From Streptacidiphilus sp. ASG 303 (lineage in GTDB: Bacteria > Actinomycetota > Actinomycetes > Streptomycetales > Streptomycetaceae): a stretch of DNA of 64,000 nt. Made by a program: the position numbers and the translations under genes. The stretch covers positions 248,001 to 312,000 of the forward strand of contig NZ_JAJLRA010000006.1 of the NCBI RefSeq assembly GCF_020991365.1, given 5' to 3'. Within the stretch, counting starts at the first letter, position 1. Each line of letters opens with the position of its first letter. This document shows, piece after piece, positions 12,998-30,554 of this stretch. The notes below the pieces were generated by a model. It saw only the letters and a program-made list of their open reading frames with translations. It did not search any database and had not been told where the DNA came from.

Positions 12998-14224
12998 ATG
13001 CACCCGGGAAGCACCGCGCGGGGCGGGCGCACCGCCCTCGCCGCGGTCGGCGGGGTCCTGCTCGTGCTGGCCGCACTGGCGGGATGCCGACCCGCCGACC
13101 CCGTGCGCCCCTCCTCGGACGGCGCCGTCGCCGCCACCCCCGCGCCCCCGCGGGTCTCCCGCGCCGCCGTCACGGTCGTGCCGACCGACGGCGCCTCCGA
13201 CGTCGCGCCGACCGGGTCCGTCCGCGTCACCGCCGAGCGGGGGCGGCTGACCTCGGTCCGGCTGGCGGACGACGGCGGGCACACCGTCCCCGGCCACCTG
13301 GAGCCGGGCGGCGCCGCCTGGCTGCCCGACGCGCCGCTGGCGCTCTCCACCCGCTACACGGTGGACGCGACCGCCCGGGACGCCGAGGGCCTGGAGGCCG
13401 CCCGGCACGCCGCCTTCACCACCCTCGTGCCGAAGCACACCGCCGTCGCGTTCTTCACGCCCGAGGCCGGCTCGACGGTCGGCGTCGGCATGCCCGTCTC
13501 GCTGCGGTTCACCCGGCCGATCGCCGACCGGGCCGCGGTGGAGCGGGCGGTGCGGGTCACCGCGGACCCGCCCGTCCCGGTGCGGCTGCACTGGTTCGAC
13601 GGCACCCGCCTGGACTTCCGGCCCAAGTACTTCTGGAAGCCCGGCACCCGGGTGCTGCTGTCGCTGCGCCTGCGCGACCAGCGGGTCGCGCCGGGCGTGT
13701 ACGGGGTGCAGCGCAAGGACGTGCGGTTCACCGTCGGCCGCTCGCAGGTCTCCACCGTCGACGTCAGGGCCCGCACCATGACGGTGCGCCGCGACGGCGG
13801 CGTGCTGCGCACCCTGCCGATCTCGGCGGGCAGCCCGCAGCACCCCACCTACAACGGGTACCTGGTGGTGTCCGAGAAGTTCGCGGTGACCCGGATGAAC
13901 TCCCGGACCGTGGGCCTGGGCAGCGAGTACGACATCCCCGACGTGCCGCACGCCATGCGGCTGACCGGCTCCGGCACCTTCGTGCACGGCAACTACTGGG
14001 CCCCCCGCTCGGTCTTCGGTGCCGAGAACACCAGCCACGGCTGTGTGGGCCTCGCCGACACCAAGGGCGGCGGCGCCGACACCCCGGCCGGCTGGTTCTT
14101 CGCCCACTCGCTGATCGGCGACGTCGTCCGCGTGGAGGGCTCCGACGACCGCACGGTCGACCCGGCCAACGGGCTCAACGGCTGGAACCTCGCCTGGTCG
14201 CAGTGGAGCCCCCAGCCCCGCTGA
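12998..14224 (+). CDS. L,D-transpeptidase lipoprotein (YkuD domain)
   Basis: The 408-residue protein has a lipoprotein signal with lipobox LAGC (Cys about residue 29), a Thr/Pro-rich linker, two Ig-like domains of the type seen in mycobacterial LdtMt2 (about 45-250), and a C-terminal YkuD catalytic domain. The active-site motif SHGCVGL puts the catalytic Cys at residue 349, with the partner segment FVHGNYW just before. The family makes 3-3 (meso-DAP/LL-DAP) crosslinks in peptidoglycan outside the membrane. It is followed by a paralog in tandem. It is divergent from glgX, and the 237-base gap between them must hold both promoters. The window shows no other cell-wall genes beside the pair. Confidence 0.92.
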   Translation: MHPGSTARGGRTALAAVGGVLLVLAALAGCRPADPVRPSSDGAVAATPAPPRVSRAAVTVVPTDGASDVAPTGSVRVTAERGRLTSVRLADDGGHTVPGHLEPGGAAWLPDAPLALSTRYTVDATARDAEGLEAARHAAFTTLVPKHTAVAFFTPEAGSTVGVGMPVSLRFTRPIADRAAVERAVRVTADPPVPVRLHWFDGTRLDFRPKYFWKPGTRVLLSLRLRDQRVAPGVYGVQRKDVRFTVGRSQVSTVDVRARTMTVRRDGGVLRTLPISAGSPQHPTYNGYLVVSEKFAVTRMNSRTVGLGSEYDIPDVPHAMRLTGSGTFVHGNYWAPRSVFGAENTSHGCVGLADTKGGGADTPAGWFFAHSLIGDVVRVEGSDDRTVDPANGLNGWNLAWSQWSPQPR

Positions 14225-14398
14225 CCGCGCCCCCCTGCCGGGCCCCGCCCGCCCCGCGGCCGCCCGCGCCCTCGCTCCGGGGCCGCCGCTGCCTGCCGTT
14301 ATCCTCGGATGTCCAGCCGCGTGCAGGATCACGGCCCGGTGCAACCGGCCCGCCCCCCTGTGCGTGTAGTGAGGTGAAACCGGGAGGGGAGCACACAC

Positions 14399-15688
14399 GT
14401 GAAGCCGGAACAGGCGGCAGCCGCCGCGATACGCCCGAGCGCCGTACGAGGCAGGAACCGGGGCGCCGCGCGGGGTGCGCTCGCCCTGCTCCTCGGCCTC
14501 CTGCTGGCCCTCGTCACCGCCTGCAGCTCCGGCGGGTCGAAGTCCTCGGACGCGTCCGGGGGCAAGGGCGGCGCCGACAAGGGCGCCAGCCAGGCCGACA
14601 AGGCCGCCGCGCAGAAGACCTCCGACGCCGTGATCTCCATCACGCCCAAGGACGGCGCCTCCAACGTCCCGACCCGCGACGCCCTCAAGGTCACCGTCGC
14701 CAAGGGGAAGCTCACCTCGGTCAAGGTCACCTCGGAGTCCGGCGCGGCCGTCGCCGGCGCCCTCGCCGCCGACGGCAGCAGCTGGACGCCGGCCGACTCC
14801 CTGAACACCGGCGTCAAGTACCGGGTCGAGGCGCACGCCAAGGACGCCAAGAACCTGGAGGCGGTGGAGAACGCCACCTTCACCACGCTGACGCCCGCCA
14901 ACACCTTCATCGGCTACTTCAACACCGAGCAGGGGCAGACCTACGGCGTCGGCATGATCGTCTCGCTGCGGTTCAACAAGCCGATCGCCAACCGCAAGGA
15001 CGTCCTCGGCCACATCAAGGTGACCGCGAACCCCGCGGTCGACGTGGTCGGCCACTGGGTCGACGGCCAGCGGCTGGACTTCCGCCCCAAGGACTACTGG
15101 GCGCCCGGCACCCAGGTCACCCTGGGCCTGCGGCTCAACGGCGTCCAGGGCTCCCCGGGCGTCTACGGCGTGCAGTCCAAGGACGTGAAGTTCTCCATCG
15201 GCCGCTCGCAGGTCAGCCTGGTGGACGCCGAGAAGCACACCATGACGGTCCGCAAGAACGGCGCCGTGCTCCGGACCATCCCGATCTCCGCCGGGTCGCC
15301 GCAGAACACCACCTACAACGGCAGGATGGTGATCTCCGAGAAGTACACCGAGACCCGCATGAACGGCGACTCGGTCGGCTTCAAGGGCGAGTACGACATC
15401 AAGGACGTGCCGCACGCCATGCGGCTGACCACCTCCGGCACCTTCGTGCACGGCAACTACTGGGGCAGGCCGGACATCTTCGGCGCCGAGAACACCAGCC
15501 ACGGCTGCGTGGGCCTGCGCGACGCCAAGGGGGCGAAGGACCCGGGGACCCCGGGCGCCTGGTTCTTCTCCCACTCGCTGATCGGCGACGTGGTCGAGGT
15601 GGTCCACTCGCACGACAGGACCGTCGACCCGTTCAACGGCATCAACGGCTGGAACATGGACTGGTCGCAGTGGACGGCCGGCAGCTGA
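14399..15688 (+). CDS. L,D-transpeptidase lipoprotein (YkuD domain), second copy
   Basis: The 429-residue protein is a clear paralog of the preceding gene, with closely parallel sequence from the Ig-like domains onward. The signal ends in lipobox VTAC, followed by a Ser/Gly/Lys-rich linker. The catalytic motif SHGCVGL has its Cys at residue 370. The GTG start has a good ribosome site (GGGAGGGGA). The 174-base gap from the first copy and a TATCCT-like hexamer near 14300 suggest its own promoter. A 14-bp hairpin terminator follows. The tandem pair probably arose by duplication and may give conditional or partly redundant crosslinking. Confidence 0.92.
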   Translation: MKPEQAAAAAIRPSAVRGRNRGAARGALALLLGLLLALVTACSSGGSKSSDASGGKGGADKGASQADKAAAQKTSDAVISITPKDGASNVPTRDALKVTVAKGKLTSVKVTSESGAAVAGALAADGSSWTPADSLNTGVKYRVEAHAKDAKNLEAVENATFTTLTPANTFIGYFNTEQGQTYGVGMIVSLRFNKPIANRKDVLGHIKVTANPAVDVVGHWVDGQRLDFRPKDYWAPGTQVTLGLRLNGVQGSPGVYGVQSKDVKFSIGRSQVSLVDAEKHTMTVRKNGAVLRTIPISAGSPQNTTYNGRMVISEKYTETRMNGDSVGFKGEYDIKDVPHAMRLTTSGTFVHGNYWGRPDIFGAENTSHGCVGLRDAKGAKDPGTPGAWFFSHSLIGDVVEVVHSHDRTVDPFNGINGWNMDWSQWTAGS

Positions 15689-16659: not shown

Positions 16660-16828
16660 CGCGCCCGCGCCCCGTCCGCGCCGTGGCCGGGCGCCCGTGG
16701 GCGCCGCCCGTGACCGCTGCCCGCGCCGTGGCCGGACCCCGCCGCGGCGCGGGCGGCGCGATCGTACGACTGATGATCCTTTCCCGGTTGTGGCCACGTC
16801 CGGGGGCCGCAGCGGCCATGATGGGCGC

Positions 16829-17317
16829 ATGTCGGGCCGGGGAGAAGCAGAGCGGACGCACCACCCGAGCCCGGGGTTCCCGGACGAGTTCGCCCCGGAC
16901 CCGCTGGAGGCCGCCTTCTTCGACCGCCTCTCGCACCCCGCCGTCGACGAGGTGCGGCTGCCGGCGACGGCGGAGTCGGCCGGCGAGGCGCGGCGGCTGA
17001 CCCTCTCCGTGCTGGAGCTCTGGGGTCTGGTGCAGCAGCGGGAGGCCGCCGAGCAGCTCGTGGGCGAGCTGGTCGCCAACGCCGTACGGCACACCGGCGG
17101 CCGCACGGTGGGCGTGCGGTTCGCCCGCCGGCCGGGCTGCCTGCGCGTCGAGGTGCGGGACCCGTCGCGGGCGCTGCCGTGCCTGATCCGGGTGGAGGCC
17201 GACGCGGACTCCGGGCGGGGGCTGCAGCTGGTGGAGGCGATGTCCGACCGCTGGGGCGCCGACCTGCTGTCGCGGGGCAAGAGCGTCTGGTTCGAGCTGC
17301 GGGTGCGCGAGCGCTGA
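16829..17317 (+). CDS. RsbW/SpoIIAB-like ATP-binding regulatory protein
   Basis: The 162-residue protein has a HATPase_c domain covering residues about 45-160. The N box ELVANAVRHTGG and the glycine-rich GRGLQLVEAMSDRWG are intact, while no phospho-acceptor histidine domain is present. Streptomyces carry dozens of such small anti-sigma-like ATPases, which act as switch kinases or partner-binding regulators. The N-terminal 40 residues are specific to this protein. No anti-anti-sigma or sigma gene adjoins it, so the partner is unknown. ATG 16829 is preferred because the frame further upstream reads as low-complexity GC sequence. Confidence 0.82.
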   Translation: MSGRGEAERTHHPSPGFPDEFAPDPLEAAFFDRLSHPAVDEVRLPATAESAGEARRLTLSVLELWGLVQQREAAEQLVGELVANAVRHTGGRTVGVRFARRPGCLRVEVRDPSRALPCLIRVEADADSGRGLQLVEAMSDRWGADLLSRGKSVWFELRVRER

Positions 17318-18018
17318 GGGGCCGAGGGACCGCCCGGGAGGCAGGACCGCCGGGGGGGCGGGAGGCGCCCGGAACGCATGCGGGCCCCCGTGCGCCGTGA
17401 TGAGGCGGTGCGGGGGCCCTGCAGCTCACCGCGCAGGCCAGAGGGGGTGCGTGCCGTGCGGTGCGTGACGGCCGTGCCGGGTCGTGCGGAGGCCGTGGTC
17501 AACGGGTACCAGTGTCCCACAGGGTGGGACAGTCGGGCAAACCGTACGCCTGGCATTCAAAGGTGTGCATATCGATTCACCTTGTGTTCGTGAGCCTGTC
17601 GGGCTGCAGGCCTTGTTTGCGCCGGATCTTTGGCTCCGGAGTGTGCGTCCGCCCCCCGGTGCGGCCCTGCCCGCACGGCGTACGCCCCTCCCGGCGCGGC
17701 GTCCGTGCAGGGCCCGTGCGGCGTCCGTGCAGTGTCCGCGGGGAGGGTCCGGGCAGTCTCCCGGGGAATCTGCTAAACCGGTTCGGTTCACACCGTTGTC
17801 ATCGTTCGGGTGCGCCTTTACGCTGAGTCCCGCGCCGAATGCCGTCGACCATTCGGGCAGCCGGAAGGGCGCCCTGCGCCCCGGCCCCGGGCGACGATGT
17901 CGCCGGTCGACACGGTGTCGAAGCCCCAGGCCGGAACAGGGGCAGAGCCCGGTCGCCGTGCTGTGCCGCGACCCCCGAACGGAATCCGCGAGATTCCTCC
18001 CGACAGGGGAGTCGTCCC
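17318..18018. other. 701-bp intergenic region with short palindromes
   Basis: No convincing gene on either strand. The middle (about 17500-17620) is less GC-rich than its surroundings. It contains a perfect 8-bp inverted repeat with a 3-nt loop at 17513-17531 (TGTCCCAC-AGG-GTGGGACA), a 6-bp inverted repeat AAGGTG-N12-CACCTT at 17560-17583, and a palindromic AACCGGTT near 17776. The mannanase promoter must lie here. Any of these could be regulator binding sites. Confidence 0.5.
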
Positions 18019-19620
18019 ATGAGAAAACGCATTGCGGGTGCCCTGGCGGCGCTTTTCGCACTCGTCGTCCCGATGCTCGCCGCCGCCCAGCCCGCGCACG
18101 CCGCGACCGGCCTCCACGTGAGCAACGGCCGTCTGGTGGAGGCCGGCGGCAGCGACTTCGTCATGCGCGGCGTCAGCCACGCGCACACCTGGTACCCCAC
18201 CCACCTCAACGCCCTCGACGACATCAAGGCGCTCGGCGCCAACACCGTCCGGGTGGTGCTCTCCAGCGGGGACCTCTACACGAAGAACGACACGGCCGAC
18301 GTCGCCAACATCGTCTCCCGGTGCAAGGCCGACCGCCTGATCTGCGTCCTGGAGGTCCACGACACCACCGGCTACGGCGAGAGCAGCGGTGCCGTCTCCC
18401 TGAGCCGGGCCGCCGACTACTGGGCCGGTGTGAAGAGCGCGCTGGACGGCCAGGAGAGCTACGTCGTCATCAACATCGGCAACGAGCCCTACGGCAACGC
18501 CAACACCGGCGCCTGGACCAACGACACCGCCGACGCGATCCGGAAGATGCGCGCCGCCGGCTTCCACCACACCCTCATGGTCGACGCGCCGAACTGGGGC
18601 CAGGACTGGTCCTTCACCATGCGCGACAACGCCCGCACGGTCTTCTCGGCCGACCCCGAGGCCAACACGGTCTTCTCGGTGCACATGTACGGCGTCTTCA
18701 ACACCGCCGCCAAGGTGAGCGACTACCTCAACCGCTTCGTCTCGGCGAAACTGCCCATCGTGGTCGGCGAGTTCGGCTGGAAGCACACCGACGGCGACCC
18801 CGACGAGGACGCCATCATGTCCACCGCGCAGTCGCTGGGGCTCGGCTACCTGGGCTGGTCGTGGAGCGGCAACGGCGGCGGGGTCGAGTACCTCGACATG
18901 GCGACGGGCTTCGACGCCTCCCGGCTGACCAGCTGGGGCCAGCGGGTCTTCAACGGCGCCAACGGCATCCGGTCCACCGCGAAGGAGGCGTCCGTCTACA
19001 GCGGCACCGGCGGGGGCGGCACCGACACCACGCCGCCCACCGCGCCCGGCGCACCGGTCGTCACCGCCACCACGAGCAGCAGCGTCTCGCTCTCCTGGGG
19101 GGCCGCCACCGACGACACCGGCGTCGCCGGCTACGACGTCTACCGCGGCGGCGCCAAGGTCGGCAGCACCGCCGGCACCTCCTACACGGACACCGGCCTG
19201 ACCGCCTCCACCGCCTACGCCTACACCGTGAAGGCCCGTGACGCGGCCGGCAACACCTCGCCCGCGTCCGCCGCCGTCACCGCCACCACCCAGGCGGGGA
19301 GCACGGGCGGCGGCGACTCCGGCTGCACCGCGTCCTTCCGCGTGGACAACCAGTGGAGCGGCGGCTTCATCGGCATCGTCACCGTCAAGAACACCGGCAG
19401 CGCGCCGACGAAGGGCTGGAAGGTCACCTGGACCTTCGGCGGCGACCAGAAGATCGTCAACTCCTGGAACGCCACGGTCGTGCAGAGCGGCGCGTCCGTC
19501 TCCGCCGCCAACGTCGACTACAACGCGTCGGTGGCGCCCGGGGCCTCGACCGACCTGGGCTTCCAGGCGAACGTGACCGGCCCGCCCGGCACGCTCACCC
19601 CGGTCTGCACCGCGGGCTGA
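18019..19620 (+). CDS. Secreted GH5 beta-mannanase with Fn3 and CBM2 modules
   Basis: The 533-residue protein has a Sec signal peptide (residues 1-29, cleavage after AHA). The GH5 catalytic domain spans about 30-330, with acid/base Glu156 in NIGNEPYG and nucleophile Glu251 in GEFGW. A Gly/Thr linker follows, then one fibronectin type III module (about 337-425) and a C-terminal CBM2 (about 432-533) with the expected flanking cysteines. The catalytic domain resembles the GH5_8 mannanases of Streptomyces (LHVSNGRLVE, GVSHAHTWYP), which cut beta-1,4-mannan chains. A cellulase activity is a less likely alternative. The ATG at 18019 follows AGGGGAG. It stands alone, consistent with regulation from the long upstream region. 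Confidence 0.92.
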   Translation: MRKRIAGALAALFALVVPMLAAAQPAHAATGLHVSNGRLVEAGGSDFVMRGVSHAHTWYPTHLNALDDIKALGANTVRVVLSSGDLYTKNDTADVANIVSRCKADRLICVLEVHDTTGYGESSGAVSLSRAADYWAGVKSALDGQESYVVINIGNEPYGNANTGAWTNDTADAIRKMRAAGFHHTLMVDAPNWGQDWSFTMRDNARTVFSADPEANTVFSVHMYGVFNTAAKVSDYLNRFVSAKLPIVVGEFGWKHTDGDPDEDAIMSTAQSLGLGYLGWSWSGNGGGVEYLDMATGFDASRLTSWGQRVFNGANGIRSTAKEASVYSGTGGGGTDTTPPTAPGAPVVTATTSSSVSLSWGAATDDTGVAGYDVYRGGAKVGSTAGTSYTDTGLTASTAYAYTVKARDAAGNTSPASAAVTATTQAGSTGGGDSGCTASFRVDNQWSGGFIGIVTVKNTGSAPTKGWKVTWTFGGDQKIVNSWNATVVQSGASVSAANVDYNASVAPGASTDLGFQANVTGPPGTLTPVCTAG

Positions 19621-19753: not shown

Positions 19754-22700
19754 GTGGAAGCGGCGGAGACGGACCGGCTGGTCGAGTACTTCTTCTGCGA
19801 CCCCCAGACCGCCCTGGGGCGCTACGGCACACCCGCCGGACGGAACGTCGCCGAGTGCGGCCACGAGCTGATCTCCGGTGCGCTGCACCGGTACGACCTC
19901 ACCGACGGCGGCCAGTTCCCGGTGACGCTCCAGCTCTACCAGGGACTCTCCAACGTCGCGGGCCACCTGTGGGAACAGGAGGTCCGCGTGCTGCTGCGCG
20001 CGGCGGCCCTGCGGCACCCGGCACTCCCGGAGATCGTCACCGGCGGCTACCGGGATGCCGAGGCGACCCGTTCCAAGGGCTTCGATGTCAACGGATTCGC
20101 GTACGTGGTCACCAAGGGCGCTGTCGACAGCCTTGCCGACGGCGGCCTCCTGGACGACCTCCGGGGACAGCACGCGGTGGCGGTCAGGCAGTTCTTCTTC
20201 CTTGCGGACGCACTGTCCGTACTGCACGGACAGAAGATCGTGCACCGGAACCTGTGGCCCGGCAGCATCGACGTCCACCAGGACACCTCCATGCCCGTCG
20301 GTCCCGAGCGCCTGCAGCTGCGACTCTCCCGCTTCGAGATGAGCGCCCTCATCGGCAACCTGCTGCGGGCGACCGAGATGGACACCGAGCACGCCGCCGA
20401 GCAGGTCACCCGCCTCCTGCTCGGGCAGGACACCGAGGCGTTGGCCTACTGCGCCCCGGAGAGGCTCGCCTACCTCTTCCCGGTCCAGGGGACCGAGCCC
20501 GCCGACCACGCCAGTTCCGACGTCTTCAGCCTGGGCGCCACCGTCGCCGAGTGGTTCCTCCCCGAGAGGCCCGGTCCGGCGGCTCCCTCCGCCCCGGGAA
20601 GCGACCACCTGCTCGCCTGGGCGCGCAACCGGCACACGGCGCTGCGGGAAGCCCTCGCCGGCCACCCCGACCTTCCCGGCCCCCTGCGGACGCTCCTCAC
20701 CGACATGCTCGCCCACCACCACCGCGAACGGCCCACCAGCTACGAGGTCGTGGAGCGGATCAGCAGCAACTACGAGGAGATATCGGGCCACTGGGCCCAG
20801 GTCTCGGATGTCCAGCTGCCCTACCTGATGGCCTTCCTCCCCGCCGAGTCCCGCCACACGCTGTACCACTGGGGATGGCTGACCCATGACCCGGAGTCCG
20901 AGGAAGGGCACCGGGAGCTCGCCGAGCTCATCGAGCAGGACCTGTGCGGGGCGCGCCTGGTCCACGCGCCCCACGGGGCCGTGCCCTACGTCGTTCCGGG
21001 GGACAAGCAGACCAAGCGGGAGGCCCAGCTGCTCCTGATCGGGGCGCGGGCGGCCTGGTTCTGCCAGCGCTACCGGCCGTTCAGTGCGCTCGGCACCGCG
21101 CTGGGCCCGCCCCGCGAGGACACCCTGGTGATCAAGTACACGGTGTCCCTCGACAGCTCCGCAGGCCGTTCGATTCTGGACGACGTCGCCCGGACCCGCT
21201 TCCACCGCACCATCCCCTCGGTCGAGGCCGTCGCCTACAACATCCACCCGGCGGAGTTCGCCAGGGCGCAGGCCGGCCGGCCCAAGTGGACCCCGCTCGT
21301 CGATGCGATCGCGCGGGCGGTGGTCGACTCGCCGACCGACCTGGTCTACGAGCAGGCCTTCGACTGGCTGCTGAGCTACCAGGAGGTGGAACTCCAGGCC
21401 CGTGAGTACGCCTACGAGGTCGACAAGGAGGACAGCGGAGCCCGCTACCTGACGCTGCGGCTGGACGCGGCGCGCGACGACGCCCGCAGGCACCGCAACG
21501 CCATGCTGACCTACTACTGCGAGGACCCGGCGCTCCGGCCGCCCCTCGGCGACTTCTTCGCCTCCTTCGCCTCCGAGGAGGGGGGCGACATCGAGGTCCT
21601 GGACGACCGCAACGGTGCTCCCCGGCGCCATCGCGACCGCCGGGTCCTCGTCAGCCTCGACGACCAGCTGGGCGAGCAGGCCATCCGGGTCCGCCTGCAC
21701 TCCGACAGCGGCAGGCCCCCGGACCGGGGCTGGATCCGTCCCGCGGGGGATCTCGGGAGCTGGGTCGCCTACCGCCGCCAGCTGCACGCGCGCTGGAAGC
21801 TCCTGGGAAACAAGGTGCTCCTCCAGCAGCTCCAGAGCCCGACGACGATCAAGGGGCTTCCGGAGCGCTGGAAGGACGCGGGCACCGGCCTGGTGGGGGG
21901 CGAGGTGGTGACCGACATGCTGGTGTCGCAGCCGTTCTTCGCCCTCCAGGGGCCCCCCGGCACCGGCAAGACCGAGATGACCGCGAGAGCGGTCATCGCC
22001 TACCTCCGGCAGGAGCCCGCTGCCCGGGTGATGGTCTCGGCCCAGTCCAACTGGGCCCTGGACAACCTGGCCGCCCGGATCCTGGAGCGGCTCGCCCCGG
22101 AGGACGAGCAGCAGGGGGAGGCCGGTGGGAAGGACGCGCCGGAGAACCGTCCGCTCGACGCGCTCACCGTGGGCGACATCATCGCGCTGCGTGTCACCAC
22201 GAGTTCCTCCGCCGACCGCGTGGACGACCGCCTGCGCCCCTTCCGTCCCGCAGAGCTCGCCGAGGCGCGTTCCGAGGCCCTCCAGAAGTACGCCGTCAGG
22301 GCGCAGAAGGAGGCCGGCCGGGACAGCCGGGAGCTGCAGCTGCTCAAGGAGTGGGAGAAGGTGGCGAAGGGGGCCGTGCCCGAACTCACGGACCGCATCC
22401 GGCGCTCCGCCAACCTCGTCTTCGCGACCTGCTCGTCCGCCGACCCGGAGCACATGTCGGTCACCGGCAACGAGGAGCCGTTCGACTGGGTGCTGATCGA
22501 GGAGGCTGCCAAGGCGTGGCCCACCGAGATCGCCATCCCCCTCGCCCAGGGCCTGCGATGGACCCTGATCGGCGATCACCACCAGCTCCCGGCCCACCGC
22601 AGACAGGACGTCGAACGCTTCCTGCACGACTCCGCCGACCACCCCGACCCCGCTCTGGCCCTGCACGGTTCCCGCAGTGCCGAGTACCTGCGCGTCTTCA

Positions 22701-23443
22701 ACATGTTCGGCAGCCTCTTCGACCGGCCGGCCGCCGGCACCGACCGGGCCGACGGCTCCCTGTCCCGGCCCGTACGCACGCTCAGCACGCAGTTCCGGAT
22801 GAACCGGCCCATCGGGAACCTGATCAGCCGGGTCTTCTACCCTGATCCCGAGGACCCCGGGGGCGAGGGGCTCATCCGCACCGGGAAGGCCGACGAGCCG
22901 CACGGCTACGGTGCGCCGGAATGGCTGGGCGACGCGTCGCTCGTCTGGCTGGACACGCACGCCCTGACCGGCTGCGAGGACGAGCCCGCCTGGAAGAACC
23001 GCGGTGAGGTCGAGGTCGTGTCCGAGCTGGTGTCCCGGCTCAGCCCGCGTCCCCAGCCGCGTCGCGATGGCGGGGGCCACGACGCCCTGGCCGTGCTCGC
23101 CCCGTACCGGCAGCAGACCGATCTGCTGCGCGCCCGAAGCGATTTGGCCCCTTTCGTCCACACCGTCCACGCCTACCAGGGGCGGGAGGCCGAGGCGGTC
23201 GTCGTCTCCCTGGTCCGGGACCGCAACCGGAGCGAGGCGAAGGACCAGCCGTGGAAGAACCTGGGCCACCTGGTCCAGCCCGATCTGGTCAACGTGATGT
23301 GCTCGCGCGCTCGGCGACTTCTGGTCATGGTCGGCGACCTCGAGCATTTCGCGGGCAGCGGGGTGGAGTTCTGGGCGCAGGTCTGCGATGCGTTCCGGCA
23401 GTACGGCCTGGTCCTGCCGGCCGGGCGGGCGTTCGGTGACTGA
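19754..23443 (+). CDS. Pseudokinase-SF1 (Upf1/Dna2-like) helicase fusion
   Basis: The protein is 1,229 residues from GTG 19754 (GGAGG just upstream); an in-frame TTG at 19694 would add 20. Residues about 20-320 follow a Ser/Thr kinase fold: a C-helix (WEQEV), YCAPERL (APE motif) and SSDVFSLGATVAEWF are kept. The VAIK Lys is replaced (VTLQ), HRD reads HRN (about 164-166) and the DFG position reads SRFE, so it is probably a pseudokinase. A 400-residue unassigned middle leads to an SF1 helicase: Walker A GPPGTGKTE (about 733), Walker B-like LIEEAAK (about 914), GDHHQLP, STQFRMNRP (about 1011), VHAYQGREAEAV (about 1139) and NVMCSRAR (about 1180). It is first in a three-gene operon. The likely role is nucleic-acid remodelling controlled by the kinase-like domain. 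Confidence 0.85.
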   Translation: MEAAETDRLVEYFFCDPQTALGRYGTPAGRNVAECGHELISGALHRYDLTDGGQFPVTLQLYQGLSNVAGHLWEQEVRVLLRAAALRHPALPEIVTGGYRDAEATRSKGFDVNGFAYVVTKGAVDSLADGGLLDDLRGQHAVAVRQFFFLADALSVLHGQKIVHRNLWPGSIDVHQDTSMPVGPERLQLRLSRFEMSALIGNLLRATEMDTEHAAEQVTRLLLGQDTEALAYCAPERLAYLFPVQGTEPADHASSDVFSLGATVAEWFLPERPGPAAPSAPGSDHLLAWARNRHTALREALAGHPDLPGPLRTLLTDMLAHHHRERPTSYEVVERISSNYEEISGHWAQVSDVQLPYLMAFLPAESRHTLYHWGWLTHDPESEEGHRELAELIEQDLCGARLVHAPHGAVPYVVPGDKQTKREAQLLLIGARAAWFCQRYRPFSALGTALGPPREDTLVIKYTVSLDSSAGRSILDDVARTRFHRTIPSVEAVAYNIHPAEFARAQAGRPKWTPLVDAIARAVVDSPTDLVYEQAFDWLLSYQEVELQAREYAYEVDKEDSGARYLTLRLDAARDDARRHRNAMLTYYCEDPALRPPLGDFFASFASEEGGDIEVLDDRNGAPRRHRDRRVLVSLDDQLGEQAIRVRLHSDSGRPPDRGWIRPAGDLGSWVAYRRQLHARWKLLGNKVLLQQLQSPTTIKGLPERWKDAGTGLVGGEVVTDMLVSQPFFALQGPPGTGKTEMTARAVIAYLRQEPAARVMVSAQSNWALDNLAARILERLAPEDEQQGEAGGKDAPENRPLDALTVGDIIALRVTTSSSADRVDDRLRPFRPAELAEARSEALQKYAVRAQKEAGRDSRELQLLKEWEKVAKGAVPELTDRIRRSANLVFATCSSADPEHMSVTGNEEPFDWVLIEEAAKAWPTEIAIPLAQGLRWTLIGDHHQLPAHRRQDVERFLHDSADHPDPALALHGSRSAEYLRVFNMFGSLFDRPAAGTDRADGSLSRPVRTLSTQFRMNRPIGNLISRVFYPDPEDPGGEGLIRTGKADEPHGYGAPEWLGDASLVWLDTHALTGCEDEPAWKNRGEVEVVSELVSRLSPRPQPRRDGGGHDALAVLAPYRQQTDLLRARSDLAPFVHTVHAYQGREAEAVVVSLVRDRNRSEAKDQPWKNLGHLVQPDLVNVMCSRARRLLVMVGDLEHFAGSGVEFWAQVCDAFRQYGLVLPAGRAFGD

Positions 23444-23497: not shown

Positions 23498-26400
23498 ATG
23501 GGCAACCTGACGGTCAGTGTGCGGTGCGTGGTGGTGCCGGTCAGGGTCACGCTGGGCTACGGCCGGTTCGTCTCCCCGATCGAACAGATCGTCCTGAAGA
23601 AGCTCACGCTCCACGAGGCCGACGGCCTCGACGAGCCGGCCGTCTACGGAGCCGACGAACTGGCCCGCAGCCTCGGCCTCGGTCAGCGCCTCACCCTCGA
23701 CATCATCTCCGACCTGTGGCACAAGAACTACATCACCCTGGACCTCGCCCGGGGCGTGGTACGGGCCGCGGACCACGTCCGGCGCCGCGCGGCGCAGGGG
23801 ACGCTGCACGAACTGGAGGGCGCCGAGGTCCACAGCGTCGAGTACCCCCTGATGGTGGACTCCCTGACCGGCACCCTCATGCCGGTCAACGGCTCCCCCC
23901 GACCGCAGGAGGGCCACCACGTCGTCCCGGTGCTCGACCGCTGGGCCACGGACGACACGTTCACCCAGGCCGAGCTGGCCGACGCCCTCCACGAGCACCT
24001 GCGCCAGGAGCGCCGCCAGGAGCGCCGCCAGGGCGCACAGGGCCGGGAGCAGCGCGTGCTCACCGCCCAGCTCGTCCCCGCCGACCTCCGTCCGCCGCCG
24101 CAGAACCGCTGGCTGCCCCTGAGCATCACCGTGGGGTGGGACAACGACGCCCAGAAGATCCGCCTCTTCTCCGACGACCCGGCATTTCCCACCGAGAGCC
24201 GGCTGCGCGCCCTCAGCCGGATCGCCGAGCTGCTGGAGACCCTGCCGGAGAACGCCTTCGCCACCCAGGTACGCCGTGCCGCCAACAGCCAGTTCGTCGA
24301 GGCCCCGTCCCTGGAGACGGCCCTGGAGCGACTGGAGGAGGCGGCGGCCGGGGTCTCCGGATCCGCCCCCGGGACACAGCATGCCCGGCACAACGAACTC
24401 GCCAGGCAGAGCCGCCAGGTGACGGAACTGCTTCGGCTGCGGGTCGCCTCCGAGGTCCGCACCCGCGTCGTGGTCGACCCGGACGACCACCGCGAGACCG
24501 TCGTCGAGCTGATCGAACGCGCGCGCCGGCAGATCGTCCTCGCCTGCCCCTCCGTCGGCTACGAGCCCCTCTACGCCTTCTCCGAGCACCTGCGCCAGGC
24601 GCTGGCCAGGGGCGTCCACGTTGTCCTGCTGTGGGGGGAGAGGCACGGGGACGAGGTCTCGGAGAAGGTGCGCAACCTCCTCAACGACCTGCGGCGGGCG
24701 GGCCGCGGCAAGCTCGTATGGACCTACCGTCCCAGCCGGACCCATGCCTGCCTGGCGGTCTGCGACGACCGGGCCGCGCTGGTGACGGGCCACCGCTTCC
24801 TGAGCCCTCCACCGCCCCGGCACGGCAGGGAGGGCCGCGACCGGCAGAACCGCGCCCTGCAGGTCGGTGTGCGGGTCGAGGCCCCGACTTCCGGCCCCTG
24901 CGATCCCGTGGAAGGGCTCCTGCGCTGGGCCAGGACCGCAGTGCCCGACTACTCGGTCGGCCAGAAGGTCCACATCCGGCACAGCGACTTCACGGAGGCC
25001 GCGGGTACCGAAGGCGCGAGCACCGCGTCCGGTGGGGAGCCGCCCGGTGACGCAGCGAGGCAGGGGGAGGCCGAGGAGGAGCGGTCCTCCTCCTGGGAGC
25101 CCCTGCTTCCCGGGCTCCCCGCCGAACCCGCCGTGCCCGCCGACGGCGCGCCGCCCTCTGCGGCGGTGACGGCGGTGTGGGGCCAGGCATGGGTCGAGTA
25201 TGCGGCCGCCCTGCGCCGACAGCTCGAGGCCCGCACACTGCCGTGGGCCATGGTCCAGGTGGACGGGGCGCACCGTGAGACCCTGTGGCAGGCACTGCGC
25301 CACAGCCGCTCCCGACTGCTGCTGTCGGGTGCCCGGGTCGGCCCGGACGCCTTCGACTTCCGCGCGTCCGCGGCCCTGGAGAAGCTGCTCCGGGCGGGTG
25401 TCCGGGTGACCGTCGCCCACGGCCGGCCCACCGAGTCGACCGGCGTCGCCGAAGGCCCCCGCCGCCTGCTGGCCGGCCTGAAGGCGGCCTTCGCCGACCG
25501 TGGTCTCCAGGTCGTCCAGCAGGCGACCAACGCCCGTCTGATGGTGAGCGACGACGAGGCGCTGGTCGGCAGCTTCGACCTGCTCTCCCTCGGCAGCCAG
25601 GCTCCCGGTCTCTCCCACAAGCGTCCCAGCGAGATCGGTCTCAGGCTGATCGACCGGCGCACAGCCGACCAGCTGGTCGATGCCGTGCACGGTGCCCCGC
25701 AGCGCGACGCGCCGGATTCGGTGGAGAGCAGCCCGCCCACGGCCGCCAAGGCCGAGGCGGCGGCACCGGACATGGCCGGCCGCGCCCAGCGCCTGCTCAA
25801 CACCGTGGCGGAGGAGGCCCCGTCCGGAGACCCGGCCGCCGTTGCGGCACTGGCCCGTGACTGCGTCGAGCAGCTCGCAACCCAGGGGGGCGACGCCGTG
25901 TGGGCCCTGCTCGACACCCTGAGGCGGCACGACGCCTACCGCCCGGTGCTGCGTCCGGCGGCCGCGTACGCGAGCGGACGGTTCGCCGGGAGCCCCGAGG
26001 CCCGGACCTGGCGCCGCTGGCTGATGCGCGACTGCTGGGAGCGCGGCATGTTCGTCGAGGCCGTGGTGCTGCGTGCAGCCATCCCCGGGGACCACACCCG
26101 CCCCCGCCTGCCGCTGTCGCTGGTGGCGGCCGCTCGCGGCGGCGCCCACTTCGACGAAGCGGTGCTGGAGGCCGCCCTCGACGTCGAGGACAGCCTGAAG
26201 CGGTCCAGACCCTGGGCCGGTGCCGAGGCCGCCGCCCTGGTCTCGCTGTGTGTGGCGGAGATCCTGACCGCGGAACGGGGAGATGCCGCCGCGGAGGCCC
26301 TGGACCTGCTGGAGCAGTACCTCGCCGAACCCTGGAGGGCCCTCTCCCGGCTCGGCCGGGACCACTGGGGCGACAGCGCCCTCGGCCCGGTGCCCGTGGC

Positions 26401-26962
26401 CGAGATCCGGGCCCAGGCGGACCGCGCCCGGCACCGGACGGAGGTCGACCGGGCGTGGGAGGAACTGTCCCGGCGCCACGGCCGCGCGGCCCAGGTCACC
26501 TTCCGCTTCCAGTCCGGCACCCGCACCCATGCCCGGCTCTTCGGCCCCGACGGCGACTTCGGCTGCCTCAAGGGCCCGATCGACGCCAGGGACGGCGAAG
26601 CCGTACGGCAGTGGCTGGCCGCCCATCCGGCCTCCGACGTCGACCGGGTCCTGGACCGTGCCACCCGTTCGGTGGGGGCCACGCACGAGCTTCGGCTGAT
26701 GGCCAACAACCAGCGTCTCAACTTCGTCGCCAGGCTCGTCGAGGTCGCCGAGGGCGCCGCCGACCTTGTGGCGCTCCTGAACGCGGACAGCCCGGCAGGC
26801 ACCCGCAGGCTTGCCGGGCACGCTCCCGTGGCCCGCGCGCTGTCCTCGCTGCTGCCCCGGGTGGTTGCCGCGGCGGAGGACCTGGACGGCCCCGAGCCGC
26901 TGCTCGCCCGGGACGTGCTCGCCCGACTGTCCGACATCGCCGCCTGGGGGGGATCCATATGA
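23498..26962 (+). CDS. Large protein with winged-helix and two degenerate phospholipase-D-like motifs
   Basis: The protein is 1,154 residues, with ATG preceded by GGGGGAGGA. A winged-helix-like domain lies near residues 28-85. Two PLD-superfamily-like blocks follow at about 325-435 and 590-700. The first motif reads H-A-C-x4-D then G (HACLAVCD near 415), so the catalytic Lys is Cys and the GSxN Ser and Asn are lost. The second reads NARLMVSD then VGSFD, so His and Lys are both replaced. Catalysis of the usual HKD kind is therefore unlikely. The remaining ~400 residues look like all-helical repeats. Its stop overlaps the next start (ATGA) and it follows the helicase by 54 bases, so the three products are probably made together. 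PLD-like proteins beside helicases occur in restriction and defence loci, but this one matches no named system that I know. Confidence 0.8.
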   Translation: MGNLTVSVRCVVVPVRVTLGYGRFVSPIEQIVLKKLTLHEADGLDEPAVYGADELARSLGLGQRLTLDIISDLWHKNYITLDLARGVVRAADHVRRRAAQGTLHELEGAEVHSVEYPLMVDSLTGTLMPVNGSPRPQEGHHVVPVLDRWATDDTFTQAELADALHEHLRQERRQERRQGAQGREQRVLTAQLVPADLRPPPQNRWLPLSITVGWDNDAQKIRLFSDDPAFPTESRLRALSRIAELLETLPENAFATQVRRAANSQFVEAPSLETALERLEEAAAGVSGSAPGTQHARHNELARQSRQVTELLRLRVASEVRTRVVVDPDDHRETVVELIERARRQIVLACPSVGYEPLYAFSEHLRQALARGVHVVLLWGERHGDEVSEKVRNLLNDLRRAGRGKLVWTYRPSRTHACLAVCDDRAALVTGHRFLSPPPPRHGREGRDRQNRALQVGVRVEAPTSGPCDPVEGLLRWARTAVPDYSVGQKVHIRHSDFTEAAGTEGASTASGGEPPGDAARQGEAEEERSSSWEPLLPGLPAEPAVPADGAPPSAAVTAVWGQAWVEYAAALRRQLEARTLPWAMVQVDGAHRETLWQALRHSRSRLLLSGARVGPDAFDFRASAALEKLLRAGVRVTVAHGRPTESTGVAEGPRRLLAGLKAAFADRGLQVVQQATNARLMVSDDEALVGSFDLLSLGSQAPGLSHKRPSEIGLRLIDRRTADQLVDAVHGAPQRDAPDSVESSPPTAAKAEAAAPDMAGRAQRLLNTVAEEAPSGDPAAVAALARDCVEQLATQGGDAVWALLDTLRRHDAYRPVLRPAAAYASGRFAGSPEARTWRRWLMRDCWERGMFVEAVVLRAAIPGDHTRPRLPLSLVAAARGGAHFDEAVLEAALDVEDSLKRSRPWAGAEAAALVSLCVAEILTAERGDAAAEALDLLEQYLAEPWRALSRLGRDHWGDSALGPVPVAEIRAQADRARHRTEVDRAWEELSRRHGRAAQVTFRFQSGTRTHARLFGPDGDFGCLKGPIDARDGEAVRQWLAAHPASDVDRVLDRATRSVGATHELRLMANNQRLNFVARLVEVAEGAADLVALLNADSPAGTRRLAGHAPVARALSSLLPRVVAAAEDLDGPEPLLARDVLARLSDIAAWGGSI

Positions 26963-29547
26963 CCGCAGCGCAGGAGCAGCCCGAGGTCCCCGCCGTCCCC
27001 CGCGACCTGGTGGCCCACTGGGCCGGGCGATGGCGCTACCCGTCCTTGCTGGCCCTGCTCAGCCGCACGGGCGAGGATGCGGCGCTCGGAGCCGACGCGG
27101 CGGCGGACGCGGTCGCCGACGGACTTGCTCGCCCGATGGGGCTCCCCGAGCACGCGGCATCGGCGCTCATCGAGCGGGGCGAGTTCGCAGCGGCCCGGCA
27201 GGTGCCCGGCTGGGTTGACGCGGAGGGCGCCGTCGAGGCGGCCGTCGCCGAGGCCAGGGCCCGGCTCGGGCGCCGTCTCGACCGGTTGGCCCGCCGGGCG
27301 GTCCGCGCCGGCCTCGCCGACCGACCACCGGAGGGGCTGGAGCCGCTGCTGGAGGTCCGGTCGGCGGACGCCGACGCGGTCCTCGCCGACTGGCAGGGGC
27401 GCCTGGAGCAGGCCGAGAGGCGCCGGGTCGCCGAACTGGATGACCGGCTCTGCGCTGCGGTGGAGGAGGACGGCTGGACCTCGGGCGGGACCGACGCGCC
27501 CGGTCAGGCCTGCGCCGACTGGGAGCAGGCCGTACGGAACTGCCTGCGCCAGGGTGAACTCGCCGCCGCCGAAAGGCTGCTGGACGCAGGTCCCTCCCCG
27601 GATGCCGTCGGCGGACCGCTCACCGTGCCCGGCCAGCGGATCTGGCCGTGGGCGGACGTGCCCGTGCGCGAGGTTTTGGCGTGGTACGCCGGCTCGGTGG
27701 GCGCCCGCCCGGAGTTCGGCAGCCAGTGGCTGCCGGACGACGAGTCCGGCACCGCGCTGGTGGCGGCACTCGCAGAGCTGCACCTGAACGTGTCGGCCGA
27801 GACTGTGCGCGGCTTCGCCAACGCCCTCGACACCCATCTCGGAGCCGACGCCGCCCGGCACCAGGTGGAGGAGTACGGAGGCGGATTCGTCACCTGGCTC
27901 TCGGGTGTCGCCGACTACCAGCGCATCCCGCAACTCGCCCTGCCTCGCAAGCTCCGGCTGTACGTGGGCCCGGACGGCTGGTCGCCCGAGGTCCCGGAGA
28001 AGGACCGGCCGGCGGCCTGGCTGGTTCTGCGCATGCAGGCCACGGCCCGGCAGCGGGAGCTCGTCCCGCCGGGCGTGGCGGTTCTCGACGTCCGTACGGT
28101 GCTCCAGCTCGCCGCCCCGGACCGCCACGGCCGGGCCACCTCACGAGGCCACCGCACGGTCAACCTGCTGCGGTCCATGGGCCGGGGCCTGCGGGTCGTG
28201 GACATCGTCGGCCGGCAGCCGCTGCCGGACGACCGCTCCGGTCCCGCCGCCCATCCGCACGAGGAGCACGAGGACCTCGCCTGGTGGCTGGACCTGCTCG
28301 GCGTCCGTTCCACCGATGCCGCCGTCGACATGCTCCTGTACGACACCGACGGCCATCCTGTGGCGCTGCGGGCCGCGCTGGCAGGGCTGATACCGGACAC
28401 CGACCGGCCCTACGAGCTGACGTCCGAGGCGCTGGAGGAGTGGCGCGCCGACCCCGACGCCCAGGCGGCCTTCCACGACACGGTGGTGGAGCAGTCGTTC
28501 CTCGGCTCCGACCGTGAGGCGGCCGCTGCACTGCGCTCGGTCCTGCTGCTCGTCCGCGGTGAGCCCGACCTGGCCCTGTCGCCCGAGGACGTCGCGGCGG
28601 TCCTCGGTCCGTCCGCGTCCACGGCGGGAAGCCTGCCGATGGAACTGGGTGCCGCCCTCTCCCGGGTCGCGGCCGCCGGCTTCCTGCGCCAGGACCCGGG
28701 GAGCGGCCGGTACCGCTGGAACGGGCCCGGTCTGGCGGCCCTCCTCACCGGCCCCGACCCGCGTCGTGTCGAGTCCCTCCTCGACCAGGACCTGCGGGAG
28801 CTCTACGACCGTCGGGACCGGAGCGAGGAGAGCGCGGTGCTCGGCCTGCTGGAGGTGCGCGAGTCGTACGCGCACACGAGGGTCAACCGGCTGGCCGGAG
28901 CGGCCGACGCCATCAGGCGCACGCTGGAGCGCGACGACCTCTCGGAGGGGGGGCGCGCCAACCTGCACGGTGCACTGCGGGCCGTGGAGGAGAGCCAGCT
29001 GGCGGAGGCGCGGGCCCGGGACCCCAAGCGCCTGTACGACGACCTGAACACCAAGGAGCCTCTGGACCTGCGGTCCGAACTCGAGAGCCACTGCCTGGGA
29101 CTGCTGGCCGAGGCGCCGCCCGGCGTCGCCGTCGACTTCGTCCCGGGCACCGACCGGGAGGTGGTCGTCTGGGCCAGCCATCAGCTCCTCAAGATGGCTG
29201 TGGGCAACCTCCTCGACAACGCGCTCCGTGAGGTCGGGACCGACGGAAGGATCCGGGTCACCCTCGGCCTCCTGCCGCGCGGACGCGGGGGAGCCGGCAG
29301 CCCCGTCGCCCGGATCGACGTGGAGGACAGCGGGCCGGGGGTGGCCGAGTGCTGGCTGCCCTTCCTCAACGGGCTGGTGGGCGGCCCTCCGCCGACCGCG
29401 CCTAAGGGCAGCGGCCGGGGGGTCGCCTTCGCGCGGAACTTCATCGTGGACCACAACGGCACCCTCCGGTTCCTGGGGCGCTCGCACGAGCTCCGCGGAG
29501 CCCACGTGCGCATCGAACTGCCGGTCACCGGGGCCCCGGCCGGCTGA
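26959..29547 (+). CDS. Helical protein with C-terminal GHKL (histidine-kinase-like) ATPase domain
   Basis: The 862-residue protein starts at an ATG inside the preceding stop (ATGA). The N-terminal ~530 residues are mostly helical and unrecognised. A winged-helix-like segment lies at about 530-600, and a helical pair at about 630-690 contains ESYAHTRVNRLAGA, whose His639 sits where a dimerisation/phosphotransfer helix would have one. The end is a clear GHKL ATPase: N box MAVGNLLDNALREVG (about 745), DVEDSGPGV (about 787) and GSGRGVAFARNFIVDHNG (about 816). It is cytoplasmic with no membrane helix. The convergent neighbour has a receiver domain, so phosphotransfer between the two is a natural hypothesis. 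GHKL proteins without kinase activity also exist, and the H639 role is unproven. Confidence 0.8.
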   Translation: MTAAQEQPEVPAVPRDLVAHWAGRWRYPSLLALLSRTGEDAALGADAAADAVADGLARPMGLPEHAASALIERGEFAAARQVPGWVDAEGAVEAAVAEARARLGRRLDRLARRAVRAGLADRPPEGLEPLLEVRSADADAVLADWQGRLEQAERRRVAELDDRLCAAVEEDGWTSGGTDAPGQACADWEQAVRNCLRQGELAAAERLLDAGPSPDAVGGPLTVPGQRIWPWADVPVREVLAWYAGSVGARPEFGSQWLPDDESGTALVAALAELHLNVSAETVRGFANALDTHLGADAARHQVEEYGGGFVTWLSGVADYQRIPQLALPRKLRLYVGPDGWSPEVPEKDRPAAWLVLRMQATARQRELVPPGVAVLDVRTVLQLAAPDRHGRATSRGHRTVNLLRSMGRGLRVVDIVGRQPLPDDRSGPAAHPHEEHEDLAWWLDLLGVRSTDAAVDMLLYDTDGHPVALRAALAGLIPDTDRPYELTSEALEEWRADPDAQAAFHDTVVEQSFLGSDREAAAALRSVLLLVRGEPDLALSPEDVAAVLGPSASTAGSLPMELGAALSRVAAAGFLRQDPGSGRYRWNGPGLAALLTGPDPRRVESLLDQDLRELYDRRDRSEESAVLGLLEVRESYAHTRVNRLAGAADAIRRTLERDDLSEGGRANLHGALRAVEESQLAEARARDPKRLYDDLNTKEPLDLRSELESHCLGLLAEAPPGVAVDFVPGTDREVVVWASHQLLKMAVGNLLDNALREVGTDGRIRVTLGLLPRGRGGAGSPVARIDVEDSGPGVAECWLPFLNGLVGGPPPTAPKGSGRGVAFARNFIVDHNGTLRFLGRSHELRGAHVRIELPVTGAPAG

Positions 29548-29549
29548 GA

Positions 29550-30554
29550 TCAGCCCGGGCCCAGCATGCGGTCGACCGCCTCCCGGACGTGGAGGCTGTC
29601 GAAGGTGCCGTCCGTCCGGTCGGCCTTCGTGCAGATCCCGGACAGCCCGAAGCGCTCGGTGAGGTGCCGGTAGTTCTGCTCGACGTCGCCGCTCAGGAAG
29701 TACGCGGTGATGAGGATCCTCGGGATCCTGCGCTTCTGGAGGTCCATCAGGGCGTGGAAGCCGTGGTTGTCGTCGTTGCGCGGGGTCAGGTGGCGGTCGA
29801 CCAGGGCACCGTGGAACTGGGGCGGATCGCCGGCCATGAGCCGGTGGTACTCGTCCAGGTTTCTGACCGTGGTGATGTCGCAGTCCCCGAACAGGGTCTC
29901 CAGCAGCCGGCACATCTGCTCGTCGTCCTCGACGATCAGCAGCCGCCGCCGTGCCCTGGCCCTCCGCCCCGGGTAAAGGGCGTCCGCGCGCCCCACGGCC
30001 GGGTCGTGTCCGAACCGGTCCGCGAACACGGCCCAGCCCTCCACCTCCACACCCTGCCGGAACAGCGCCGACACGGCGTCCACCAGCTGCCGCCGTGCCC
30101 TGACCGCCGCGTTCCAGTGCCTGTCCTCGACCAGGTGGTGCACCTGGAGCGGATCCCCGCGCCACATCGCGAGCAGGCGGGCCACCTCGCCGGTGTCCGG
30201 TGCTCCTCCCAGGGCCGCGACCCGGCCCGGGAATTCGAGCACGTCCAGGCGGAGGAGGTCCTTCGGCAGCCGGTAGCCGCTCGAAGCCGACCTGGGGATC
30301 TCGACCCCGTGCCTCCTGAGGACCGCGTTCACCTTGCCGACATGGGTGTACACCGCGCCGGAGGACCCCCGGCGCGGCAGCATGTCCCTGATGCTCTCGC
30401 AGGACACCAGTTGCCCCTGCATGAAGAGCAGCCGCAGCAGGATGGCCGCTCCCACCCCGACGAGCGGCGTCCGCCCCCCGGCGGAGCTCTCCACGACCAG
30501 TTCACCGAGCGCGCTGACGTACGGCCTGTCCTGCTCCGGAACCCCGTCCCCCAT
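29550..30554 (-). CDS. SARP-like regulator with C-terminal receiver domain (wHTH-BTAD-REC)
   Basis: The protein is 334 residues. Residues about 10-85 form an OmpR/SARP-type winged helix (LGELVVES, then LLRLLFMQGQLVSCESI and VYTHVGKVNAVLRRHGVEI). Residues about 90-195 resemble the BTAD helical domain of SARPs (ARLLAMWRGDPLQ, then WNAAVRARRQLVDAVSALF). Residues about 205-334 are a CheY-like receiver with all key residues: VEDD, the phospho-acceptor Asp in ALVDRHL, Thr in LITAYF and Lys in CTKAD. Receivers normally come first, so this order is inverted. The stop codon is two bases from the GHKL gene's stop on the opposite strand. It probably regulates the helicase-PLD-GHKL operon or itself, and a direct repeat of SARP-box geometry lies about 240 bp upstream. 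Confidence 0.8.
   Translation of the reverse strand: MGDGVPEQDRPYVSALGELVVESSAGGRTPLVGVGAAILLRLLFMQGQLVSCESIRDMLPRRGSSGAVYTHVGKVNAVLRRHGVEIPRSASSGYRLPKDLLRLDVLEFPGRVAALGGAPDTGEVARLLAMWRGDPLQVHHLVEDRHWNAAVRARRQLVDAVSALFRQGVEVEGWAVFADRFGHDPAVGRADALYPGRRARARRRLLIVEDDEQMCRLLETLFGDCDITTVRNLDEYHRLMAGDPPQFHGALVDRHLTPRNDDNHGFHALMDLQKRRIPRILITAYFLSGDVEQNYRHLTERFGLSGICTKADRTDGTFDSLHVREAVDRMLGPG

Follow-up and report, generated by a model that had tools for sequence, protein, structure and literature searches.

According to the available text of PMC11672841, type I Mokosh pairs an RNA helicase, to which an STK domain has been added, with a PLD nuclease encoded by a separate gene. Dead kinases are already known in defence proteins, since PglW of type 2 BREX, in the part of its description available (PMC12839542), carries an inactive and an active kinase in tandem, following a NERD nuclease. 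The locus analysed here lies in a window of 64,000 nucleotides from Streptacidiphilus sp. ASG 303, to which all positions refer unless a locus is named. It shares with type I Mokosh a COG1112/Upf1-like SF1 helicase with an N-terminal kinase-fold domain (MkoA), followed by an adjoining gene for a PLD-family protein (MkoB). However, its kinase domain lacks the three catalytic residues (Gln60, Asn166 and Arg193 stand in their places), its MkoB lacks the catalytic HKD motifs and carries an extension of ~430 aa, and two extra genes, encoding a predicted histidine kinase and a putative response regulator, belong to the locus. Like the anti-phage protein PglW, the window MkoA has a catalytically dead kinase module, but PglW, according to the same partial source, keeps a second, active kinase, whereas MkoA has a single dead kinase domain fused to a helicase. 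The extra pair resembles HK853-RR468 and CckA in its DHp-CA fold, with the His on the first DHp helix and N and G boxes, and in a receiver with an acidic residue, a phosphoacceptor Asp and a Lys; it differs in the long unrelated N-terminal half of the histidine kinase, in having a Mokosh core as operon partner, and in the C-terminal position of the receiver within the regulator. The portions of the literature searched, with subscription papers and preprints outside their scope, contained no report of a pseudokinase, a histidine kinase or a response regulator in Mokosh.

The mkoA-like gene occupies 19754..23443 on the + strand (GTG start at 19754, stop at 23443) and encodes 1229 aa, comprising the kinase-like domain (residues 1-345), a middle region (346-654) and the helicase (655-1229). 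It is followed on the same strand by the mkoB-like gene (23498..26962; 1154 aa, the extension being C-terminal) and by a third gene (26959..29547; 862 aa), which overlaps mkoB by 4 bases and encodes the predicted histidine kinase, a soluble protein. The gene for the putative regulator, P0005 (29550..30554; 334 aa), lies on the - strand and is convergent with the third gene, their stop codons being two bases apart. The PADLOC profile for MkoA (PDLC03920) matched residues 47-1223 of the 1229-aa ORF (E 1.3e-249), and that for MkoB (PDLC03922) matched residues 2-729 of the 1154-aa ORF (E 2.5e-128). Because of these adjacent matches, the kinase-like domain with its helicase is assigned to MkoA of type I Mokosh, and the locus, on profile evidence, is a divergent type I system of actinobacteria. 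It is the one full-length MkoA match in its own genome, the remaining 29 being partial and mostly confined to the kinase part of the profile. The original prediction, a kinase-fold domain without its catalytic motifs fused to a helicase, had contained neither this MkoA/Mokosh identity, nor the lost catalytic motifs of the PLD partner, nor the downstream histidine kinase and response regulator.

The kinase-like domain of MkoA

In the domain encoded at 19754..20788 (+), alignment with MkoA proteins that have intact kinases places Gln60 (position 19931) at the VAIK Lys, and the family alignment places Asn166 (20249) at the HRD Asp and Arg193 (20330) at the DFG Asp. All three losses had been predicted, with HRD correctly read as HRN; the accompanying reading of DFG as SRF was one residue off and is ruled out, since the family alignment sets Phe194 on the DFG Phe and the motif reads R193-F194-E195. 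Ser171 stands in place of the HRDxKxxN Asn. Residues that support the fold are present, namely the APE Glu236 (20459), the alpha-F Asp256 within DVFSLG (20519) and the alpha-I Arg326, in line with the earlier observation that the APE motif and a D-x-x-SLG segment are kept. Pfam Pkinase scored 25.2 bits over residues 150-334, under its 31.7-bit cut-off, as expected for a degenerate kinase domain. An AlphaFold2 model built from 38 aligned domains reached a mean pLDDT of 90.9 and a pTM of 0.91, and VIA-align superposed 258 residues of it on BRAF (6xfp) with Z 23.0 and an rmsd of 3.3. Protein kinases were among the matches listed by Foldseek, PknB being first by E; structure matches within one Z are ties, and no particular kinase is named as nearest. 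The anticipated intact kinase fold is thereby borne out by a high-confidence prediction. The same 38 domains gave no sign of a catalytic Lys or Asp at a shifted position, a finding that would have overturned the original prediction: their 18 invariant columns, which include His164-Arg165, hold no Lys, and the sole invariant Asp is that of alpha-F.

For comparison, 77 MkoA proteins were retained after 6 identical genome copies and 4 short ORFs had been dropped. Three states were assigned by hand from the motif read-out and then counted by script; a Fisher test, which takes no account of common descent, is not relied on. In state A (n=11), the Lys, the HRD Asp, the HRDxKxxN Asn and the DFG Asp are each present in 11/11; D[FY]G was read in L098, L107 and L110-L115, and DFA in L099, L108 and L109. 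These intact motifs rule out that the kinase is dead in all Mokosh. State B (n=17), a Mokosh group with two genes, keeps the Lys in 15 of 16 readable members and has lost both catalytic Asp residues (0/17 each), with Gly at the DFG Asp position in all and Glu at the DFG Gly position in 17/17. State C (n=49, including the window) has none of the three residues in 48 readable members: the Lys is found in 0/48, the HRD Asp in 0/48 (Asn in 39) and the DFG Asp in 0/48 (Arg in 47, Gly in 1), while the metal-binding Asn of HRDxKxxN is also gone (0/48), Glu195 occupies the DFG Gly position in 48/48, and the APE Glu, the alpha-F Asp and the alpha-I Arg are each kept in 49/49. Since the count is zero of 48 at each of the three catalytic positions and Glu195 is universal, the catalytic loss is not due to chance, and the replacements foreseen for one protein turn out to be conserved in its homologues. 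The three catalytic residues are not found together in 66/77 of these MkoA-profile relatives, so the full triad is not necessarily a family-defining feature. The sample is not random, clade C having been gathered mostly by a scan seeded with its own members, and the proportions are not prevalences.

A tree of the helicase part only, rooted on state A by choice, groups all 49 state-C proteins together (local support 0.945) and all 66 B and C proteins together against A (0.957). The kinase-only tree returns the same groupings with lower support (0.814 for C and 0.885 for B+C). The nearest neighbour of C in the tree is a state-B protein (L090). The simplest reading of these trees is a stepwise loss, in which both catalytic Asp residues would have disappeared in the ancestor of B and C and the Lys subsequently in the ancestor of clade C; the relative order of Lys loss and histidine-kinase gain is indistinguishable. 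The nearest relative of the window is L041 (MkoA 87% identical). For this one sequence pair, a simple counting method gave dN/dS values of 0.103 (pseudokinase), 0.208 (middle region), 0.203 (helicase), 0.305 (MkoB), 0.297 (third protein) and 0.381 (regulator). Having the lowest value, the dead kinase is under the strongest constraint of all operon modules. Judged by these alignments and the predicted model, the N-terminal domain of MkoA is a true pseudokinase, whose fold and structural residues are selected for and whose anchoring and catalytic residues are gone, and it presumably does not phosphorylate. With its fold, its conserved losses and its purifying selection, the fusion of a pseudokinase to a helicase stands as predicted, and the further suggestion that the domain acts as a switch on the helicase, in a sensor or scaffold role, would be compatible with all results.

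The helicase and the neighbouring proteins

The helicase core (21716..23440, +) contains the ATPase motifs GPPGTGKT (residue 733), EEAAKAW (916), GDHHQL (940), QGREAE (1142) and CSRARR (1183), and its key residues are invariant in 10 relatives. Pfam AAA_11/AAA_12 matched this part, and the nearest solved helicases for a related group-B profile (A2) are Upf1/SMUBP-2/Sen1. In the window MkoB both HKD motifs are replaced, reading HACLAVCD at residue 416 and NARLMVSD at 678. Among 48 clade-C MkoB proteins, neither motif is intact in 35, both are intact in 11 and only the first in 2; state-B MkoB (n=11) has both in 8 and neither in 3. In state-A MkoB (n=9) a regular expression gave one HKD match in 5/9 and none in 4/9, a count from which the catalytic state is not inferable. 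As read from these motifs, loss of the nuclease signature is frequent in clade C and not universal.

The C-terminal part of the third protein matches Pfam HATPase_c (E 1.3e-11), as do 39/42 aligned homologues at E<=0.01. A candidate phosphoacceptor His639 (position 28873), the N-box Asn754, the G1 box D790-G792-G794 and G821 are invariant in 21 homologues, nearly all of which belong to the window's subclade. In the predicted structure (mean pLDDT 84.1), His639 lies on a helix spanning residues 601-656, followed by a second helix (663-685) and the catalytic domain, an arrangement that provides the DHp helix with its His and the GHKL ATPase of a histidine kinase in both sequence and model. Structure matches, which cover residues 621-859 only, include YycG, CpxA, HK853 and CckA, with a DHp-CA fold and Z up to 19.3. 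The HK853 alignments 4jav, 4jas and 4jau put residue 639 on position 260 if ungapped, and other PDB titles name an H260A mutant. In three loci, MkoB and the third protein form one uninterrupted ORF (L055, 13678-19476; L060, 13663-19569; L068, 13681-18534).

A homologue of the histidine kinase was found by profile in 46/49 clade-C loci, including the window; in the other three, two contigs end inside mkoB and L070 has none in the ~2 kb after mkoB. The profile search detected neither the histidine kinase nor the regulator in the 17 state-B loci. In the 11 state-A loci it detected no regulator and one marginal histidine-kinase match, to an upstream ATP-binding gene (L112, E 9e-4). Within clade C, subclade C1 (third genes of L028-L032, L062, L064, L067, L069, L071, L073, L074, L076, L079, L081, L082 and L089) keeps the HATPase protein, in which the conserved His is missing, and has no regulator. 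The role of the third protein must therefore differ in C1, where the ATPase may act without phosphotransfer. The third gene of L053 is frameshifted in appearance, and its G1 Asp reads A.

P0005 has a C-terminal receiver-like part with Asp210, Asp253 (29796-29798) as the putative phosphoacceptor and Lys310 (29625-29627), all invariant in 25 homologues. Its Pfam Response_reg match is weak, with E 0.022 for the window protein and 3/25 homologues at E<=0.01, and its assignment as a probable response regulator is based on these residues together with co-occurrence with the histidine kinase. The N-terminal part has a SARP/AfsR-like look. The regulator, which in clade C accompanies the window's subclade, is present in 27/46 loci with a third gene, and in 27/27 of those the third protein has the His. 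The 19 regulator-negative loci have H in that column, which is loosely aligned in C1, in 3 cases and in another sequence context. Most of this co-occurrence corresponds to one split in the tree; more informative are L068 and L080, on separate branches within the regulator-bearing part, in which the third protein no longer has its HATPase domain and the regulator has disappeared too. Co-occurrence of this kind is consistent with phosphotransfer from the third protein to the regulator. Co-expression of the regulator with the operon is not a given, because it is transcribed in the opposite direction. Overall, the helicase, the histidine kinase and the receiver look like the sole intact catalytic sites of the window locus.

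Proposed signalling mechanism and its alternatives

The locus is probably a variant of Mokosh in which Ser/Thr phosphorylation was abandoned, a His-Asp relay was added and the pseudokinase serves as a scaffold or allosteric part. The mechanism and defence role that we infer are as follows. Control by phosphorylation would have passed from the Ser/Thr kinase of MkoA to the His-Asp relay, and the helicase would remain the nucleic-acid engine, recognising foreign nucleic acid. The pseudokinase and the PLD-fold MkoB could act as a scaffold or as an allosteric relay to the histidine kinase, which would listen to the helicase-pseudokinase-PLD complex, its N-terminal 600 residues being the likely docking or sensing part. 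Phosphorylation of the regulator would then set a transcriptional response. A more specific and more tentative version, for the window and its close relatives, holds that the locus is a two-component system fed by nucleic acid: with both original Mokosh enzymes, kinase and PLD nuclease, dead, the helicase-pseudokinase-PLD complex would feed a cytosolic histidine kinase, and the regulator would answer foreign nucleic acid with a transcriptional response.

Loci with active kinases provide a point of comparison. In 3/11 state-A loci, all from alphaproteobacterial plasmids, a PP2C gene lies directly 3' of mkoB (L111, 8876-9601; L112, 8882-9667; L114, 8960-9769), which suggests reversible Ser/Thr phosphorylation there. 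These loci have the same operon core as the window and the kinase domain in the same place in MkoA, but they combine intact kinase residues with PP2C as the third gene, whereas in the window the kinase is dead and the third gene encodes a histidine kinase. PP2C was found in none of the 17 state-B loci. That one branch pairs a kinase with PP2C, and another a dead kinase with the histidine kinase, suggests a change of signalling chemistry; this pairing with PP2C was seen only in the three alphaproteobacterial loci, so the idea that a kinase and phosphatase were replaced by a His-Asp relay draws on few cases. Separately, a PP2C-like ORF is located ~2 kb beyond the locus in L080 (21074-22879), the sole case in the 49 clade-C loci.

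A doubtful alternative is that the locus has become a regulatory device on a Mokosh chassis that no longer serves defence, sensing host nucleic-acid stress and delivering its output solely through the regulator. A window MkoB without both HKD motifs, a regulator of presumed DNA-binding type, and a chromosomal position among metabolic genes, common to the window and L041, would all suit such a device. However, the retention of both HKD motifs in 11/48 clade members speaks against it, as does the patchy presence of the locus. Any MkoA-type match at 1e-20 was found in 15/394 genomes of the family, five of them being distant group-B matches, and a match at 1e-40 in 1/3 genomes of the genus. In one congener (G025) the site is empty: the two genes that flank the locus in the window, for a cellulase before mkoA and a serine dehydratase at the far end, are neighbours there. 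In another (G011) the same site holds ~7 kb of other genes (L120, 3250-10273), one ORF of which has weak STAND-NTPase matches; PADLOC recognised none of four ORFs of this cargo. Because of the empty site, the other cargo and the patchy presence, the locus is regarded as accessory DNA inserted at a chromosomal site of variable content, possibly an insertion hotspot between the cellulase and serine dehydratase genes, which is in keeping with defence cargo and does not amount to proof of it.

Proteins once called pseudokinases, such as WNK, SelO and CASK, have proved to use unconventional catalysis, and the MkoA domain might likewise transfer phosphate or a nucleotide through non-canonical residues. 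The site is indeed constrained, with Glu at the position of Glu195 throughout clade C and group B and an invariant His164-Arg165, and group B keeps the Lys. Such activity is nevertheless improbable, since the 38 domains have no conserved Lys, their catalytic loop and DFG position are without any conserved Asp or Asn, and even the metal-binding Asn has been lost in clade C. It is very improbable that the kinase domain is a functionless relic on its way out, a view to which the three lost catalytic positions and the missing MkoB nuclease motifs in 35/48 of the clade might lend themselves, given a dN/dS (0.103) below that of the helicase (0.203) and all other modules, fold residues kept in 49/49, a high-confidence fold and retention of the domain across many genera.

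The preferred reading, a Mokosh variant with a His-Asp relay, describes a branch from actinobacteria whose kinase has died by strictly conserved replacement, which has often lost the nuclease motifs as well, and which has gained a histidine kinase and a regulator. The series from an active kinase, through one that keeps the Lys and has lost catalysis, to one that has lost all three residues allows tests of what the kinase domain is for in Mokosh and of whether a pseudokinase can gate the helicase. If the relay exists, a defence-type helicase would here provide the input to a two-component pathway, which would be unusual.

Distribution and genomic surroundings

A second MkoA profile (PDLC03921, 1607 positions) was matched by its second half only in 396 actinobacterial genomes, so that branches with a longer N-terminal part of MkoA are undetectable here. 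When an Acinetobacter mkoA was searched against E. coli genomes in distant mode, no match was obtained. Phage records held no match for P0007, and an active MkoA was matched there by its helicase part only; a scan of viral contigs returned three loci, one of them full-length. No plasmid match was obtained for P0004.

Searches for repeats upstream of mkoA and for tRNA in the window were negative, and a Pfam scan of seven flanking proteins revealed no defence genes. Just upstream of the locus, the cellulase gene (17839-19620) encodes a GH5 enzyme with fn3 and CBM2 domains. A small HATPase_c_2 protein, presumably RsbW-like, is encoded outside the locus at 16697-17317. Further upstream, cross-matching DNA at 13168-15688 apparently represents two similar tandem genes, the second of which (14399-15688) is of the L,D-transpeptidase type by Pfam YkuD.
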